Shown piece by piece: positions 3,127 through 13,631 of a DNA stretch of 64,000 nucleotides. This DNA comes from Stratiformator vulcanicus (GTDB lineage: Bacteria; Planctomycetota; Planctomycetia; Planctomycetales; Planctomycetaceae). The stretch covers positions 1,126,529-1,190,528 of the forward strand of contig NZ_CP036268.1 in NCBI RefSeq assembly GCF_007744515.1, given 5' to 3'. Under the pieces are notes generated by a model. The model was not told the DNA's origin and searched no databases. It saw only the letters and a program-made list of their open reading frames with translations. The position numbers and the translations under genes are program-made. The first letter of the stretch is position 1. Every line of letters begins with the position of its first letter.

Positions 3127-3219
3127 CAGCTAACGACCCGCATCACGGGGCGGCGGGAGTCAACTTTGTTTTCACAATCCGCTGGCCACCGCCGCTCCCG
3201 TGCATGCGATGGTTCGCCC
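3127..3219 (-). other. attC-like site of cassette 2
   Basis: On the minus strand the site begins GGGCGAACC and ends GGGTCGTTAGCTGC. The arms GCATGCACGGGAGCGGCGG and CCGCCGCCCCGTGATGC are complementary apart from two bases missing in the second arm, giving the extrahelical bases expected for attC. The spacer between arms is about 32 bases. The GGGAGCGGCGG portion is shared with the sites at 1171-1263 and 3688-3781. Confidence 0.8.
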
Positions 3220-3687: not shown

Positions 3688-3781
3688 GGCGAACGTCCGA
3701 GCTAACCGGGCGGCGGACAGCGAATTTCGAAAACCACTACACGCGCCCAACCGCCGCTCCGGTTGAGCGATTTGTTATGCG
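3688..3781 (-). other. attC-like site of cassette 1
   Basis: On the minus strand the site reads GCATAACAAATCGCTC at its left end and GGTTAGCTCGGACGTTCGC at its right end. The arms GCTCAACCGGAGCGGCGG and CCGCCGCCCGGTTAGC pair with bases missing in the second arm. Left and right core regions, paired arms and spacer are all in the order expected for attC, and the TAA of the cassette 1 gene lies in the left core. Confidence 0.82.
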
Positions 3782-4578: not shown

Positions 4579-4603
4579 GGTGAATGTGATGACTCTATCG
4601 CAG

Positions 4604-4640
4604 AACTAGTGTTTATCAGGAATGATTCCGAATAACGTGC
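4604..4640 (-). other. Putative attI integration site
   Basis: The 37 bases read on the minus strand from GCACGTTATTCGG to ACTAGTT match 31 of 37 bases at 11020-11056 on the plus strand. The match stops exactly at GTT, the trinucleotide where integron recombination cuts (G^TT). After GTT the two loci are unrelated, each leading into a different small gene. It lies between the integrase remnant and cassette 1, where an attI site belongs. The tail of the integrase reading frame overlaps it. Confidence 0.6.
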
Positions 4641-4995
4641 GCACGATATTCGGAATGAAATTGGACGAAGTCGGCCGGGCTGCGGACGCCGCGACTGCCA
4701 CTATTGAGTCCATGCGTGTCGACCATTGTCGTCCGAACGTCCCGCTGTAATTCGATAACCTGTGGCCAAGGAGTTCCTGCACCGTTCGGATATCGTAACC
4801 GGCTTCGATCAAGTGCGTCGCGAACGAGTGCCGGAACGTGTGGGCTCTGACTCTCTTCGTGATATAGCTCCGAATGGTTGCGGCTCGAATTGACCTCGAC
4901 ACGGACGACTCGTGCGGGTGATGGCGGCGGCGCATCCCGGCGGCAGCGTTCCGAGCGCGATTGAGTGTCGCTGCGATCACAATCTCGAAGACAAA
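4616..4995 (-). pseudogene. intI: Integron integrase (IntI) remnant, frameshifted and 5'-truncated
   Basis: About 110 codons of the C-terminal catalytic part survive. In one frame RRRHHPHES and then [28 protein letters not shown] are strongly IntI-like: HxxR is at 4834-4845 and the LLGH histidine at 4762-4764. A 17-base insertion (4745-4761) then shifts the frame. In the new frame RDVRTTM and [12 protein letters not shown] continue the IntI ending. The catalytic Tyr of the YTH motif is Asp (VDTH). The N-terminal core-binding domain, first catalytic Arg and Lys are absent. The gene is therefore dead. It points in the same direction as the cassettes, the inverted layout reported (from memory) for Treponema denticola and some planctomycetes. 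Confidence 0.85.
4625..4656. repeat. Near-perfect 32-bp palindrome at the integrase end/attI
   Basis: The left half ATTCCGAATAACGTGC and the right half GCACGATATTCGGAAT are reverse complements with a single mismatch in 16 base pairs. The palindrome covers the left part of the putative attI site and the last codons of the integrase remnant. It could be a binding site for the recombinase, an operator, or a weak transcription stop. It is not U-tailed like a standard terminator. Confidence 0.7.
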
Positions 4996-8599: not shown

Positions 8600-8672
8600 T
8601 CCCCGATAGCTCAATCGGTAGAGCGGCGGACTGTTAATCCGTAGGTTGTAGGTTCGAGTCCTACTCGGGGAG
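8600..8672 (+). tRNA. tRNA-Asn (GTT anticodon)
   Basis: The 73-base cloverleaf has acceptor arms TCCCCGA (8600-8606) and TCGGGGA (8665-8671) with discriminator G, D-loop AGCTCAATCGGTAGAGC, anticodon loop CTGTTAA with GTT at 8633-8635, and T-arm GTAGGTTCGAGTCCTAC. CCA is not encoded. An integrase gene ends 16 bases beyond its 3' end, so the tRNA is probably the attachment target of the element to its right. Confidence 0.97.
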
Positions 8673-8687
8673 CTTCCGAAGTCTTAA

Positions 8688-9902
8688 TCAATTAGCGACT
8701 TGCGGCGACCGATCAGGGTCGCCGTTTTTCGTTTCCGGCCCGGTGATAGCCAATGTGTTAGCTGGCCGCGCCGCCCATACAATATCGGCCGCGTCGTCGG
8801 CTTCGATGCCGACGTAATAGCTCATCGTCGTGTTGATCGAGGCGTGCCGCATGAGCTGCTGCAGGACCGCCGGTTTGACCCGCTGTGCCCACCGGGTACC
8901 GAACGATCGCCGCAGGTCGTGGGCACTCGCGAACTTCACTTTGCCGGACTTCGATTCGGCGACCTTCACGCCAGCTTTCCGGCCGATCTTGACGAGCGTT
9001 TTGCTCATCGTGCCCCACGTCACCCGGCCGCACTTCTTCGATCGCAACCAAGGGTTGAAGACGAAGCCGGTTCGCTGATCGTCGGGGATCTTCGAGAGCA
9101 GATCAGCGAATTCCGGAGCAACAGGCAACATGCGATCCTTGAAGCCCTTGTCGGCCCCCGCCCGAATCCGAAACATTGGCCGACGGCCCGACAGATCGAC
9201 GCACAACTCCCGGTCATCGGTCCAGTGTAGGCGGTAGGCTTCGCGGATTCGCAGGCCGGACCACCACAGCCCGCGAATTAAATCTTCCCACCCACCGACA
9301 GCATCCGCCGGCACAACGGTCGGAACTTTCGCGATCATCCGGTCGAGCTCTTCCGCGGTGATCGCTCGCCCCTTCATCTTCGGCACTCTCTTCGGCATGT
9401 CGATTTCCGGGGCGCGGCCGATCAGCCCGACCTTTGCCGCCCATCGCAGCGACGATTTGAGGTGAGCCAGATACGAAGCGATCGTCGCTTCGCTGAGTTG
9501 TTCTTTGCGTAGCATCCCCTGCATTCGCGAGATTTGACCGCTGTCGAGTGCGGCCAAGTTCTTCGGGTCAATCGTGCGTTCGACCGCTGCGAACGCACAC
9601 GCGGCCTTCTGGCCGGTCGATTCGGCCTTGCCGCTCAGAAACTCCGATTCGTATCTCTCGCGGAAGTCTTCCCAGCCGGTGAGTTGGGTTCCGATGAATG
9701 TGCCCTCTTCGAGTTCTCGCTCGAGCTTTGCCGCCTTGCGTTCGGCGTCACGCCGGACCGGCGTTTTGAGCGACTTCGTTTTCTTCCGACCGGTCACCGG
9801 GTCGACCCACTGACCAACGTAATTCTTCCGGTTCTTTGGCCTAAAGCATGAAACTTTCATTCGACCCGCCCCCCTGTCACGCTGTTGTCTTGTTTTCGTC
9901 AC
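8688..9902 (-). CDS. Tyrosine recombinase (phage/island integrase) next to tRNA-Asn
   Basis: The product is up to 404 residues from GTG 9902; an in-frame ATG at 9860 (MKVSCFRPK) is an equally good start. An N-terminal SAM-like core-binding domain spans roughly residues 75-180, and the catalytic domain follows. All catalytic elements are seen: Arg in WWSGLRIREAY, Lys in GADKGFKDR, HDLRRSF (HxxR), the His of LMRHASINTT, and Tyr in MSYYVG. The enzyme looks intact. Its stop lies 16 bp from tRNA-Asn, the standard arrangement for an integrated genomic island with attL at the tRNA 3' end. It is unrelated to the IntI remnant at 4.6-5.0 kb. Confidence 0.9.
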   Translation of the reverse strand: MTKTRQQRDRGAGRMKVSCFRPKNRKNYVGQWVDPVTGRKKTKSLKTPVRRDAERKAAKLERELEEGTFIGTQLTGWEDFRERYESEFLSGKAESTGQKAACAFAAVERTIDPKNLAALDSGQISRMQGMLRKEQLSEATIASYLAHLKSSLRWAAKVGLIGRAPEIDMPKRVPKMKGRAITAEELDRMIAKVPTVVPADAVGGWEDLIRGLWWSGLRIREAYRLHWTDDRELCVDLSGRRPMFRIRAGADKGFKDRMLPVAPEFADLLSKIPDDQRTGFVFNPWLRSKKCGRVTWGTMSKTLVKIGRKAGVKVAESKSGKVKFASAHDLRRSFGTRWAQRVKPAVLQQLMRHASINTTMSYYVGIEADDAADIVWAARPANTLAITGPETKNGDPDRSPQVAN

Positions 9903-9965: not shown

Positions 9966-10391
9966 CTATGCGTGAGCCGCGTACGGATCGGGTGCCGCTT
10001 CCAGCCCGACCTTGATTCCGGTGTGCTGTTCGTAGAGGTCGCACACTCGGCTCATCGTCGCGTCGTCGTCTTTCTCGACCGTGAGGCCGATCGCGACGGT
10101 GTAGCCGGCGTCCTCTTCGCCCACCGGGGGATATGACCCGACGCCGAAGCAAGCGACACCCTCCCCCTCGCACGCTTCGACGAACGCCGCGTGAGCTTTT
10201 CCGCGCGGGCCCTTCGTCCCGTAGGAATCGTCAACTCGGTCAGCCTCGACCGGGTTGTTGTTGACGATCGCGAGCAGACCGTCGACTTCGTCCACGTCAT
10301 CGAGGCACGCCCGGAAGCGAAAGCGGTCGGACTCGTGAACCTCTTTCGCGACATCGTTCAAAATCTCTTCGTTGGTCCGTTCTTCGGCCAT
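9966..10391 (-). CDS. Island cargo: hypothetical acidic protein
   Basis: The start chosen is ATG 10391 (MAEERTNEEIL); an upstream in-frame ATG (10445) would add residues that do not look coding. The 141-residue product is very acidic with no signal peptide or membrane segment. It has a helix-rich N-terminus (NEEILNDVAKEVHESDRF) and a C-terminal half with the strand-like GYTVAIGLTVEKDDD. I do not recognise the family. It lies 63 bp upstream of the integrase gene on the same strand and is probably part of the same integrated element. Confidence 0.55.
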   Translation of the reverse strand: MAEERTNEEILNDVAKEVHESDRFRFRACLDDVDEVDGLLAIVNNNPVEADRVDDSYGTKGPRGKAHAAFVEACEGEGVACFGVGSYPPVGEEDAGYTVAIGLTVEKDDDATMSRVCDLYEQHTGIKVGLEAAPDPYAAHA

Positions 10392-10486
10392 TGTTCTACC
10401 TATCAATTCAGGGTTTGAATGCAGCCGCGACATTGCGGACCGCACGTTCAGTTACCGTTGCCGTTTGAAAATTCCGATTCAAGTGT

Positions 10487-10858
10487 TCATGCCGCCTTGG
10501 ATTCGTCCGGGGCCGCCGCGGCTTTCCGTTTTTCGATGAATTGGTCGACCTTCACCTCGATCGAGTGGGACGCATCGAGCAAGACGCCCTCGATCGATCG
10601 CATCAGTTCGGACGTGTCGTGCCAGCGGTCCCGGTCCGGGTCGGCTTCGTCGACGTCTTCCCAACCCGTCAGGTATTGGGCAGAGTACAGAGAGCATCGC
10701 CCCATCTTTTCGAACAGCCGTTGCCGAACTCGGTTGACGAGCCACGCGGCATCGTCGTCGGCCGCCGCGGCGAGCCGGTCGAGGTCTGTCGGGTATCGCC
10801 GGGGCGGCGAGTCATCGGCGACTTCGACGCCACGCTTTTCGCGAAAAGCGGTGATCAC
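10487..10858 (-). CDS. Island cargo: hypothetical protein, probably 5'-truncated by a repeat element
   Basis: The frame is open far upstream, but everything beyond 10860 is a repeat element whose translation has no protein character. The first plausible start is GTG 10858, two bases from the element's end. The remaining 123 residues are soluble and helical (DLDRLAAAADDDAAWLVNRV, SIEGVLLDASHSIEVKVDQF). I do not recognise a family. Either the element inserted into the original 5' region and the gene now starts at a fortuitous GTG, or the gene is broken. Confidence 0.5.
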   Translation of the reverse strand: MITAFREKRGVEVADDSPPRRYPTDLDRLAAAADDDAAWLVNRVRQRLFEKMGRCSLYSAQYLTGWEDVDEADPDRDRWHDTSELMRSIEGVLLDASHSIEVKVDQFIEKRKAAAAPDESKAA

Positions 10859-10860
10859 GG

Positions 10861-11014
10861 CGGGTGGCCCGACCGTGAAAACACCCGGGTCACGAAGCGA
10901 CGGGATGTGGTTCGACACCGTTCGGCTGACTGATCCGTCTCGCGTAAATCGGGAGGTTCTCGAACCACATCTTGTGCCTGTCGTCACCCGGCCGAGAATC
11001 GGCCGGGCCACCCG
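10861..11014. repeat. Inverted-repeat element family A, copy 1 (154 bp, MITE-like)
   Basis: The element starts with CGGGTGGCCCG and ends with the exact reverse complement CGGGCCACCCG. It contains a strong hairpin near the right end (CCGGCCGA/TCGGCCGG). It is closely similar over its length to 11537-11690 and shares its 11-bp ends with 34541-34736. It encodes nothing. No target duplication is evident at its edges. Confidence 0.75.
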
Positions 11015-11019
11015 TGGTT

Positions 11020-11056
11020 GTACGTTATTCGGAATGATTCTTGGTAAATACTCGTT
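11020..11056 (+). other. Second attI-like site, solo, with one downstream gene
   Basis: Thirty-one of 37 bases match the minus-strand sequence at 4604-4640, from ACGTTATTCGGAAT through TAAA.ACT to GTT. The last GTT belongs to GTTAGGC, a perfect match to the attC/attI core consensus GTTRRRY. Homology ends at GTT. There is no integrase gene beside it; the upstream side is occupied by an inverted-repeat element ending at 11014. Confidence 0.55.
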
Positions 11057-11069
11057 AGGCTTCACGCAT

Positions 11070-11444
11070 ATGGGTCGCCAAATTCAATTGTACGTCTGTC
11101 CTTTGATGCGAGAGGCAATCGTTTCGGAGGCGAAGCGTGTCGGCGCGAAGCTCGTCAGCCATAGCGCGGCGGGCGCTGATATCGAGTTCTCGACTAATTT
11201 CGGCGGCTCGCCGGAAGGTCGAATTTGGACAGAGGCAGCCGACCCATCGCAGTATCTGGCTCTATGTCGCGCCGCGAAGCGAGGCGCGGCCTATGACCGC
11301 GAGGCCAAACTTTGGGTGAAGCGAGCGTCTCAAGAAGAATTCCGTGCGTACTGGGTCGCACGGCAGAAGTCGCTCGACGAGTTGGTCGCACGAAATCGAA
11401 AGTTTTACATTGAGGTGCTTGGTGGCAGGCCGGTAAAACCATGA
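11070..11444 (+). CDS. Orphan small protein behind the second attI-like site (possible cassette gene)
   Basis: The protein has 124 residues from ATG 11070, only 14 bases after the G^TT of the attI-like site. The frame is open further 5', but that part translates repeat sequence. The protein is soluble and basic (RQIQLYVCPLMREAIVSEAK ... ASQEEFRAYWVARQKSL), alternating short strands and helices. I do not recognise a family. The context suggests an integron cassette. The 3' flank has an inverted repeat (AATCGCTGC/GCAGCGATT, about 11458-11517) that is only weakly attC-like. Confidence 0.55.
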   Translation: MGRQIQLYVCPLMREAIVSEAKRVGAKLVSHSAAGADIEFSTNFGGSPEGRIWTEAADPSQYLALCRAAKRGAAYDREAKLWVKRASQEEFRAYWVARQKSLDELVARNRKFYIEVLGGRPVKP

Positions 11445-11536
11445 ACGCCAGTCAAATCGCTGCGGCGAAACCCAGCCCCGCTTTGAAACTGGACGGTTCG
11501 GATTATTTGGCAGCGATTGTTCTGCTCACTTATCGG

Positions 11537-11690
11537 CGGGTAGCCCGGGCGCACGACCGGCCGGGTCGCGAAGCGACAGGATGTTGTTCGAAACCATTCC
11601 GCTGACTGATCGGTCTTGTGCAGATCGGAAGGTTCTCGAACCACATCTCGTGCCTGTCGGCACCCGGCCGAGAATCGGCCGGGCCACCCG
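11537..11690. repeat. Inverted-repeat element family A, copy 2 (154 bp)
   Basis: It is clearly similar to 10861-11014 over its whole length, of the same size, with ends CGGGTAGCCCG (one mismatch) and CGGGCCACCCG. The internal hairpin CCGGCCGA/TCGGCCGG is conserved. It stands between the orphan gene ending at 11444 and the PPK2 gene. No coding content is seen. Confidence 0.75.
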
Positions 11691-11750
11691 TTGGCAATTG
11701 AAACAAGGCTACTCTTAAGAGAAGAAGGCATAGCCGTCCATGATACCCGG

Positions 11751-11832
11751 CGGGTGGCTGCGAACGGTCTCGTAGAGCCGCCCCCAGCGAGCGCGGGGTA
11801 AGGCTGCTGTTGTTATTTACCCCAGCCACCCG
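11751..11832. repeat. Short inverted-repeat element family B, complete copy (82 bp)
   Basis: It is bounded by CGGGTGGCTG and its exact reverse complement CAGCCACCCG. The left 55 bases recur at 13349-13403 with few changes (GGTCTCGTAGAGCCGCCCCC is common to both). Confidence 0.65.
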
Positions 11833-11929
11833 TCGCGGCACCCGTAGAATCGCTTGGGCAAAATGTCCAACCGCGGGAAATTTGCGACATACGCAACCGG
11901 AGAATCAGACGGACCCATCTGCCGAGAAA

Positions 11930-12865
11930 TTACCATTTGTCGTCTTGATAAACTTCCTCCTTCTTACCGATTAAGTTCGACTCGGGTTGGCCGACAACAT
12001 CCGTGTCTTTGTTGAGATAGGGCACGGCATTGAGGACGTACTTCATACAGGCCAGCCGAGCGCGCTTCTTGTCGTCACTTTTGACGACCGTCCAGGGCGA
12101 AAACGTCGTGTCGGTCGACATAAACATTGACTTCTTGGCTTCCGTGTAGTCGTCCCACATGGCCAGCCCCTGCGCGTCGACCGGGCTGAGCTTCCATTGT
12201 TTGAGAGCGTCGTGTTCTCGAGATTTGAAGCGCCGAAACTGTTCTTCCCGGCTGACTGAGAACCAGAATTTAAACAGGCGAATCCCGTCGTCGATCAGCA
12301 TATTCTCAAGCATCGGCACCTGTCGCAAAAACGCATGGTGTTGCGACTGAGTGCAAAAACCCATCACCGGCTCGACAACGGCGCGGTTGTACCAGGAGCG
12401 ATCGAACAGCACGATCTCTCCGTTCGTCGGTAGCTGTTTAATATAACGTTGAAAGTACCACTCGCCGCGTTCGGTCTCACTCGGCTTACCCAATGCGACG
12501 ACCCGGGCATTTCGCGGATTCATATGTTCCATAAACCGTTTAATAGTGCCGCCCTTGCCAGCCGCGTCCCGACCTTCAAACAGCATCACGATCCGCTCGC
12601 CGTTGGTTTCCACCCAGTGCATCATCTTCAGCAATTCGACCTGCAGTGCGTGCTTCTCGCGTTCATAAGTTGCTGTATCGATCTTTTTGCTATACGGATA
12701 ACCTGATCCTAAGACCCGACCCTTGCGGGCCTTTTTCACGCGATTGCGAACTTCTTTAGGTACCACGTGGTCTTGAATGGCGACCGTGGCTAGGCCGGTT
12801 TGTGAACCGTTGCCGTTCGTCGAGAACCCGTTGCCCACGGATTTTGCAGACTTATTTCCAGACAT
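11930..12865 (-). CDS. ppk2: Polyphosphate kinase 2 family protein
   Basis: The protein is 311 residues from ATG 12865 (another ATG three codons upstream is possible). It has the PPK2 P-loop fold: Walker A GRDAAGKGGT (about 98-107), the lid Arg region (FMEHMNPRNARVVALGKPSE), and Walker B IVLFDRSWYNRAVVEPVMG. Single-domain PPK2 enzymes transfer phosphate between polyphosphate and nucleoside di- or monophosphates; the sequence alone does not settle which direction or nucleotide. The length fits a one-domain class I/III enzyme. The first 30 or so residues are a low-complexity Asn/Gly/Ser extension. It stands alone, with a long upstream non-coding region. Confidence 0.9.
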   Translation of the reverse strand: MSGNKSAKSVGNGFSTNGNGSQTGLATVAIQDHVVPKEVRNRVKKARKGRVLGSGYPYSKKIDTATYEREKHALQVELLKMMHWVETNGERIVMLFEGRDAAGKGGTIKRFMEHMNPRNARVVALGKPSETERGEWYFQRYIKQLPTNGEIVLFDRSWYNRAVVEPVMGFCTQSQHHAFLRQVPMLENMLIDDGIRLFKFWFSVSREEQFRRFKSREHDALKQWKLSPVDAQGLAMWDDYTEAKKSMFMSTDTTFSPWTVVKSDDKKRARLACMKYVLNAVPYLNKDTDVVGQPESNLIGKKEEVYQDDKW

Positions 12866-13631
12866 CGCACGCATTCAACCAAGAACTGGAGCCATTCTCA
12901 GGAGCGCGGAGAAAAGCCGGAAAGGGAGATGGAGCGGATGCCACGCAATGTGGCGGTCCATCAGGCGATCAGGAATCCCTTCCGGGCGGGCAAGACATGA
13001 CGATCGAACAAATCCAGACCATCAAAGCCCGCGAATCGACTGCTGACACCAATTGAGCAAAACACGTACCACACTTTTGCCGGAGAAGATCATCAGCAGT
13101 ACGACGATCATCTTCCGGGAGGGGCAAGTTCAAGGAACCGCATAGATTACTCGCGAGGAGATCACGGGCCGAATTCTCAATTCTTCGACTAAGACGTGTC
13201 GGCCATGCGAGTGGCCGTTCATGGGGTCGAGTTCGATGGGCAGGCTGCTTAACAACCGGGCACGCTAGTGTGGCTCCTCACAAGCCCGTCACTCCCTGCC
13301 GGATGTGAGAACTTCTGGGCAGTTCAGCCGAAGTCTTGGGCCGTCGGCGGGTGGCTGGGGACGGTCTCGTAGAGCCGCCCCCATCGAGCGCGGGTTAAGG
13401 CTTAGGATGTGGATCATCAATTGCGTTCTCGGCCCGAAGGTATCATTGGGCGAGCGGTTGGGCCGCAATGTATGGTCAACTTCAACAGCAGCGCGTCCTG
13501 AGATGACCGCTGGTTCGGCGGAGAGTGGATGATTGATCTACTATGAGCTAGAGTCATCCGGTTCAAGCCTTGCTCCGCCGTTCTGGAGGGCCGTGCCCTG
13601 TTAAAGGGGATTCAATGCCCGGAGGTTTCTG
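12866..13631. other. Long non-coding region
   Basis: About 765 bases separate the PPK2 start and the sulfatase start. A partial family B repeat is at 13349-13403. I see no convincing gene, tRNA or riboswitch in the rest. GGAGG at 13621-13625 is the ribosome site of the sulfatase. Confidence 0.5.
13349..13403. repeat. Family B repeat, left part only
   Basis: It matches the left 55 bases of the element at 11751-11832, beginning with the same CGGGTGGCTG end and finishing at TAAGGCT. The right inverted end is missing, so this copy is truncated. Confidence 0.6.

Follow-up and report, generated by a model that had tools for sequence, protein, structure and literature searches.

The 64-kb window considered here, the whole stretch of DNA that we analysed and part of the 5.23-Mb, single-contig genome of Stratiformator vulcanicus, contains at 11020–11056 on the plus strand a short segment resembling the recombination site (attI) of an integron, and the question it raises is whether this segment is indeed an attI and, if so, how it came to lie there with no integrase (IntI, encoded by intI) beside it. 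We conclude with high confidence that it is an attI, and that it is best explained as a fragment of the integrase-less integron units, bounded by miniature inverted-repeat transposable elements (MITEs), that would have spread in this genome, an account to which, taken whole, we assign a probability of about 65%. The order of features at 11 kb, which includes one small open reading frame (ORF), is MITE, half attI, ORF, MITE:

10861–11014, plus strand: left copy of MITE-A (CGGGTGGCCCG...CGGGCCACCCG, 154 bp), ending five bases before the 37-base segment
11020–11056, plus strand: eroded attI, keeping the right half of a palindrome (ACGTTATTCGGAA), the linker and the G^TT core
11057–11060, plus strand: AGGC, which finishes the R-box GTTAGGC as expected of an incoming cassette (weak R-box-like identity is seen past GTT among the copies)
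11070–11444, plus strand: 124-aa ORF in the first-cassette position, with its ATG at 11070, 13 bases past GTT
11537–11690, plus strand: right copy of MITE-A, in direct orientation, where a cassette attC site would be expected

Identity of the 11-kb site

The segment is identical at 31/37 bases to 4640–4604 on the minus strand, and this match, first noticed in a sequence-only reading of the window, was confirmed: the runner-up placement of the 37-mer in the window reaches 22/37 and the best of 200 shuffled 37-mers 25. BLAST with the 11-kb site also found at least five other copies in the genome, with E values of 1e-6 to 8e-5. R2, a model covering the entire site, gave at least ten full copies in the genome and the half copy at 11 kb, and a second half copy lies at 108955 (genome-wide copy numbers are lower bounds), where the sequence-only reading had spoken of two copies. 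The copies, by genome position, are as follows:

Full attI (model R2): 102312, 104450, 109767, 111650, 1131131 (the 4.6-kb attI of the window), 1557566, 3695939, 3803140, 4577969 and 5194002
Half attI: the 11-kb site of the window, and 108955 (G000:C1:108955-109014)

The most diverged of these are the copies at 3695939, where TTT replaces GTT, and 4577969. When 11 copies were aligned on GTT, mean pairwise identity was 0.76 over the 18 bases preceding it, decayed over a few core-like bases just to its right, and past +18 was 0.26 compared with the 0.255 expected for random DNA. The further copies found by BLAST likewise stop within a few bases of GTT, and a junction at G^TT with differing DNA beyond it, which is how an attI should appear, was found both among the 11 genome copies and in cross-species pairs. 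At 11 kb the GTT lies at 11054–11056, the crossover being expected between 11054 and 11055. The homology ending at G^TT, the GTTAGGC core and the small ORF just past it were all correctly described in the sequence-only reading, which had also named two observations that would speak against an attI: neither holds, as the sequence is multi-copy, yet its copies head attC arrays on the correct strand, and no copy continues beyond GTT and the core.

The assignment of the whole family to attI follows from what lies behind the sites. Among 39 attI from 13 planctomycete genomes (counts in the draft genomes hinge on contig breaks), 24 are followed within 1.5 kb by an attC on the correct strand and none by one on the wrong strand; 4 of the 39 have an attC upstream, in tandem arrays. 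In two genomes, G073 and G014, the attI directly follows the end of an intact IntI, and therefore intI reads toward attI; stubs stand beside most other copies, and in many related genomes several attI occur whose intI stubs are truncated at varying points. An attI of the same kind is found in Blastopirellula marina DSM 3645, where the IntI is truncated and attC follow. In G007 and G060, two species of a different genus, homology between loci that includes the site extends 50–230 bases to its left and ends 3–6 bases into the core, and in one locus pair a common segment lies downstream of attI at differing distances from it, which fits cassette movement. No such attI was found in plasmid and viral collections. 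We also note that another contig (L113, G084:C15, ~89700–90107) reads from a cassette ORF into an intI C-terminal stub and a second attI, giving tandem attI–cassette units.

In this genome the site includes a palindrome, TTCCGAATAACGTGC|GCACGTTATTCGGAA, whose centre is ~34 bases upstream of the core. Its symmetry is kept in other genomes through changes on both sides in 7/13 pairs, 92% of palindrome cells are paired compared with 29–46% in slid versions, and the inner AAC...GTT is nearly invariant; we infer a putative accessory pair of integrase-binding sites. The 11-kb attI has lost the left half and retains the right half and core, and the half site at 108955 keeps the left, the break in both falling two bases to the right of the centre; this agreement may reflect breakage at the palindrome. 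We tested the palindrome as a feature general to all planctomycete intI and found it clear only with the G073-type integrase. Beside another intact IntI (L077, G071), a weaker palindrome followed by ACACTGGTT lies ~220 bases past the IntI motif, which suggests a diverged form of the attI.

Dead integrases, cassette arrays and MITEs

The sequence-only reading had the 11-kb site separated from its integrase, and this is supported: none adjoins the site, no intI sequence whatever is left at 11 kb, and the nearest integrase is of the phage type (8688–9902) and falls outside the TIGR02249 match list. The integrase at 4.6 kb is itself a dead, frameshifted C-terminal stub. Against a TIGR02249 cut-off of 265 bits the highest score in the genome is 95, and neither an intact IntI nor the functional intI of a complete integron was found with this profile. 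The window's own integron, on the minus strand throughout, comprises:

4667–4971 (upper limit approximate): intI C-terminal stub, with a frameshift (17-nt insertion) and the catalytic Tyr changed to Asp
4603–4661: full attI, with G^TT at 4606–4604 (model R2, 78 bits)
3688–3780: attC 1
3128–3218: attC 2
2419–2527: attC 3
1841–1947: attC 4, weak (29 bits)
1171–1261: attC 5

These attC were identified with a covariance model (R1) built from 14 sites after a hairpin scan, with strong covariation. The genome has at least 15 attC, every one within attI-led arrays and on the same strand as the attI, and two or more attC without an integrase occur at 104k, 111k, 1131k, 1557k and 3803k, with none at 11 kb. 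A cassette ORF in the 4.6-kb array (1265–1822) has a Pfam match to DMP19 (PF14300); the other scanned cassette ORFs have no family.

The 17-nt frameshifting insertion and the Tyr to Asp change occur together in two stubs, at 4.6 kb and at 111 kb, and were not seen in the other aligned genomes; in the 1557-kb stub a version of the insertion is in frame, and the Tyr is preserved. Judged by these lesions, the 4.6-kb and 111-kb stubs either go back to a single dead integron or became alike by conversion to one allele. Despite the common lesions, the two arrays begin with different first cassettes, which suggests that cassettes were exchanged after the integrase had died. None of the dozen or so attI has a working integrase gene, so that many docking sites outlast the enzyme in this genome.

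MITE-A, the inverted-repeat element that the sequence-only reading placed to the left of the site, has terminal repeats CGGGTGGCCCG/CGGGCCACCCG, and a related element, MITE-B, has the same outer repeat. At least eight MITE-A copies are >80% identical and these cluster at attI loci, one having no attI closer than 9 kb; shorter, partial copies are numerous throughout the genome. Either MITE-A or MITE-B abuts the left end of 8/12 attI or lies within ~30 bases of it, and in the seven of these eight that bear a core the cassettes are followed on the right by a MITE as well. At 11 kb it is the same MITE that stands on both sides of the integron segment. The exact 8-mer CGGGTGGC is found within 200 bases upstream of 6/11 attI, compared with a background of five in 44 kb, an enrichment that by hand calculation is far beyond chance with shared ancestry allowed for. 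The copies at 102k, 104k and 109.0k have an identical MITE-A/stub junction position with unrelated left flanks, so that on this comparison the MITE and the attI were copied together there as a block. At G000:C1:110025-110191 the 3' arm of an attC is replaced by MITE-A, which is in turn interrupted by a second MITE.

Origin of the 11-kb unit

In the account that we prefer, an ancestral planctomycete integron with an intI reading into attI would have lost its integrase, and units consisting of MITE, intI stub, attI, cassette(s) and MITE would then have spread across the chromosome, either because the MITE-bounded unit transposed or because MITEs recombined with one another. Later, several copies would have had their cassettes changed, presumably through an integrase acting in trans, and the 11-kb unit would be among the most eroded of those spread. 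The 124-aa ORF is probably the gene of a cassette once inserted at G^TT that has lost its attC. The ORF is an orphan: it matches no Pfam family, and a search of 348 genomes of the class gave a single marginal, stop-interrupted match (E 0.009). With half a palindrome, several base changes and an ORF without attC, the 11-kb attI is probably inactive today.

Several observations weigh against this account. The 11-kb site is the weakest copy under the attI model (R2; 16 bits, E 9.5), and no attC remnant was found behind the ORF at 10800–12200 with model R1 and filters off; the attC that should follow the ORF of a gene cassette is therefore missing at 11 kb, and the status of the ORF as a cassette is read from its position alone. 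Neither a clear target-site duplication (by eye) nor an empty site came to light for the MITE-bounded unit, and a MITE insertion with an adjacent deletion could give an identical junction. Gene conversion between stubs could mimic a shared dead ancestry, and the genome as it now stands yielded no integrase that could act in trans. It should be noted that the comparison rests on one genome of the genus, in which stub conversion, MITE recombination and transposition look alike, and that a tree of the attI and stub region separates few of its forks, the region being too short.

The more serious alternative, which we nonetheless regard as unlikely, is that a second integron decayed in place: a complete intI–attI–cassette platform would have stood at 11 kb, MITE-A would have inserted on both sides, and deletions would have taken intI, half of attI and the attC, with no duplication at this locus. 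Many related genomes do carry several attI with variously cut stubs, the MITE-A inside an attC at 110 kb indicates that such elements insert into integrons, and a break close to the middle of the palindrome is what breakage at such a structure would leave. Such decay would nevertheless have had to leave no intI sequence at all, it sits poorly with the block copying of MITE and attI at three other copies, and a copy is a more economical explanation than a second, oppositely oriented integron at a distance of 6.4 kb from the first. The sequence-only reading had offered both a duplicated attI and the remains of a second integron; block copying favours the former for several other copies, and for the 11-kb copy itself both still stand.

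A bolder form of the copied-unit account makes the attI of this planctomycete lineage independent mobile landing pads, integrase-less MITE-bounded modules that multiply in the chromosome and go on receiving or exchanging cassettes via an integrase in trans. We consider this doubtful; if true, one genome would run many small docking sites and not one long array.

It is very improbable that an integrase itself made a stray attI at 11 kb, either as a cassette of the delta-attI type or through an attI-bearing circle entering a secondary G^TT site. Mobile delta-attI cassettes exist in class 1 and 2 integrons (PMC12901181), and tandem attI–cassette units occur in G084 and at 102–112 kb; set against this, the left edge of the 11-kb site is a MITE end with no G^TT junction, the attI precedes the ORF instead of following it, and the G084 stub joins within a cassette ORF in a manner resembling ordinary rearrangement. 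Finally, that the site is no attI at all, and only an attI-resembling dispersed repeat, terminator or protein-binding palindrome, as its striking inverted repeat and multiple copies might suggest, is largely contradicted by the aligned copies stopping at GTT, the correct-strand attC behind 24/39 and the intact IntI directly before the site in two genomes.

The 11-kb unit is flanked by genes at 9966–10445 and 11930–12874, and a tRNA-Asn with the phage-type integrase gene alongside lies at 8600–9902. The sequence-only reading placed the site beside a tRNA island, but evidence for such a tie was not found: no second tRNA-Asn 3' end, which would mark an island boundary beyond 11 kb, was found within the window.

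Relation to known integron systems

Cassettes join the attI1 of class 1 integrons at G^TT, and upstream of its core attI1 has further integrase boxes, accessory sites that are direct repeats; here, by contrast, there is a symmetric AAC–8 bp–GTT palindrome ~34 bp from the core. A palindromic attI was not found in the open-licence literature searched, nor were several orphan attI per genome outnumbering intact integrases, as seen over 13 related genomes. The attI outside class 1 integrons have been poorly described and are not searched for by standard software (PMC9024848), and an attI downstream of intI has been described in archaea (PMC9668308). Among the closest known arrangements is the Treponema-type chromosomal integron, in which intI reads toward attI and with which the Blastopirellula marina IntI has been placed in the same cluster (PMC3607928). 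The likeness is seen in the two genomes with an intact IntI before the attI; S. vulcanicus differs in having ~12 attI per genome, none with an intact intI, and a covarying palindrome in the attI.

Clusters of attC lacking an integrase (CALINs; PMC9024848, PMC8618304) are resembled by the attC arrays without intact intI at 102–112 kb, 1131 kb, 1557 kb and 3803 kb, except that these keep a recognisable attI and an intI stub; the 11-kb unit, an attI without attC, is the reverse of a CALIN. In the MITE-flanked class 1 integrons of Acinetobacter, MITE copies have been proposed to mobilise the unit (PMC10969869 and papers cited therein), and MITE copies bound the unit here too (the MITEs are likened by description, not by sequence), the difference being that our units are chromosomal, planctomycete, without integrase and several per genome. 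The delta-attI cassettes (PMC12901181) likewise have a truncated attI outside its normal place, which there lies downstream of an ORF and replaces attC, and here lies upstream, beside a MITE. CALINs, MITE-flanked class 1 integrons, delta-attI cassettes, archaeal downstream attI and inward-reading integrases are all, then, already known; alongside them the present loci offer a signature by which the attI of one group of planctomycete integrons can be recognised, including a putative palindromic accessory site, and genomes in which attI outnumber working integrases, so that a survey based on counts of intI or attC overlooks some of what integrons have left behind. They also supply concrete places at which to ask if integron fragments travel with MITEs and if genes are still captured at orphan attI.
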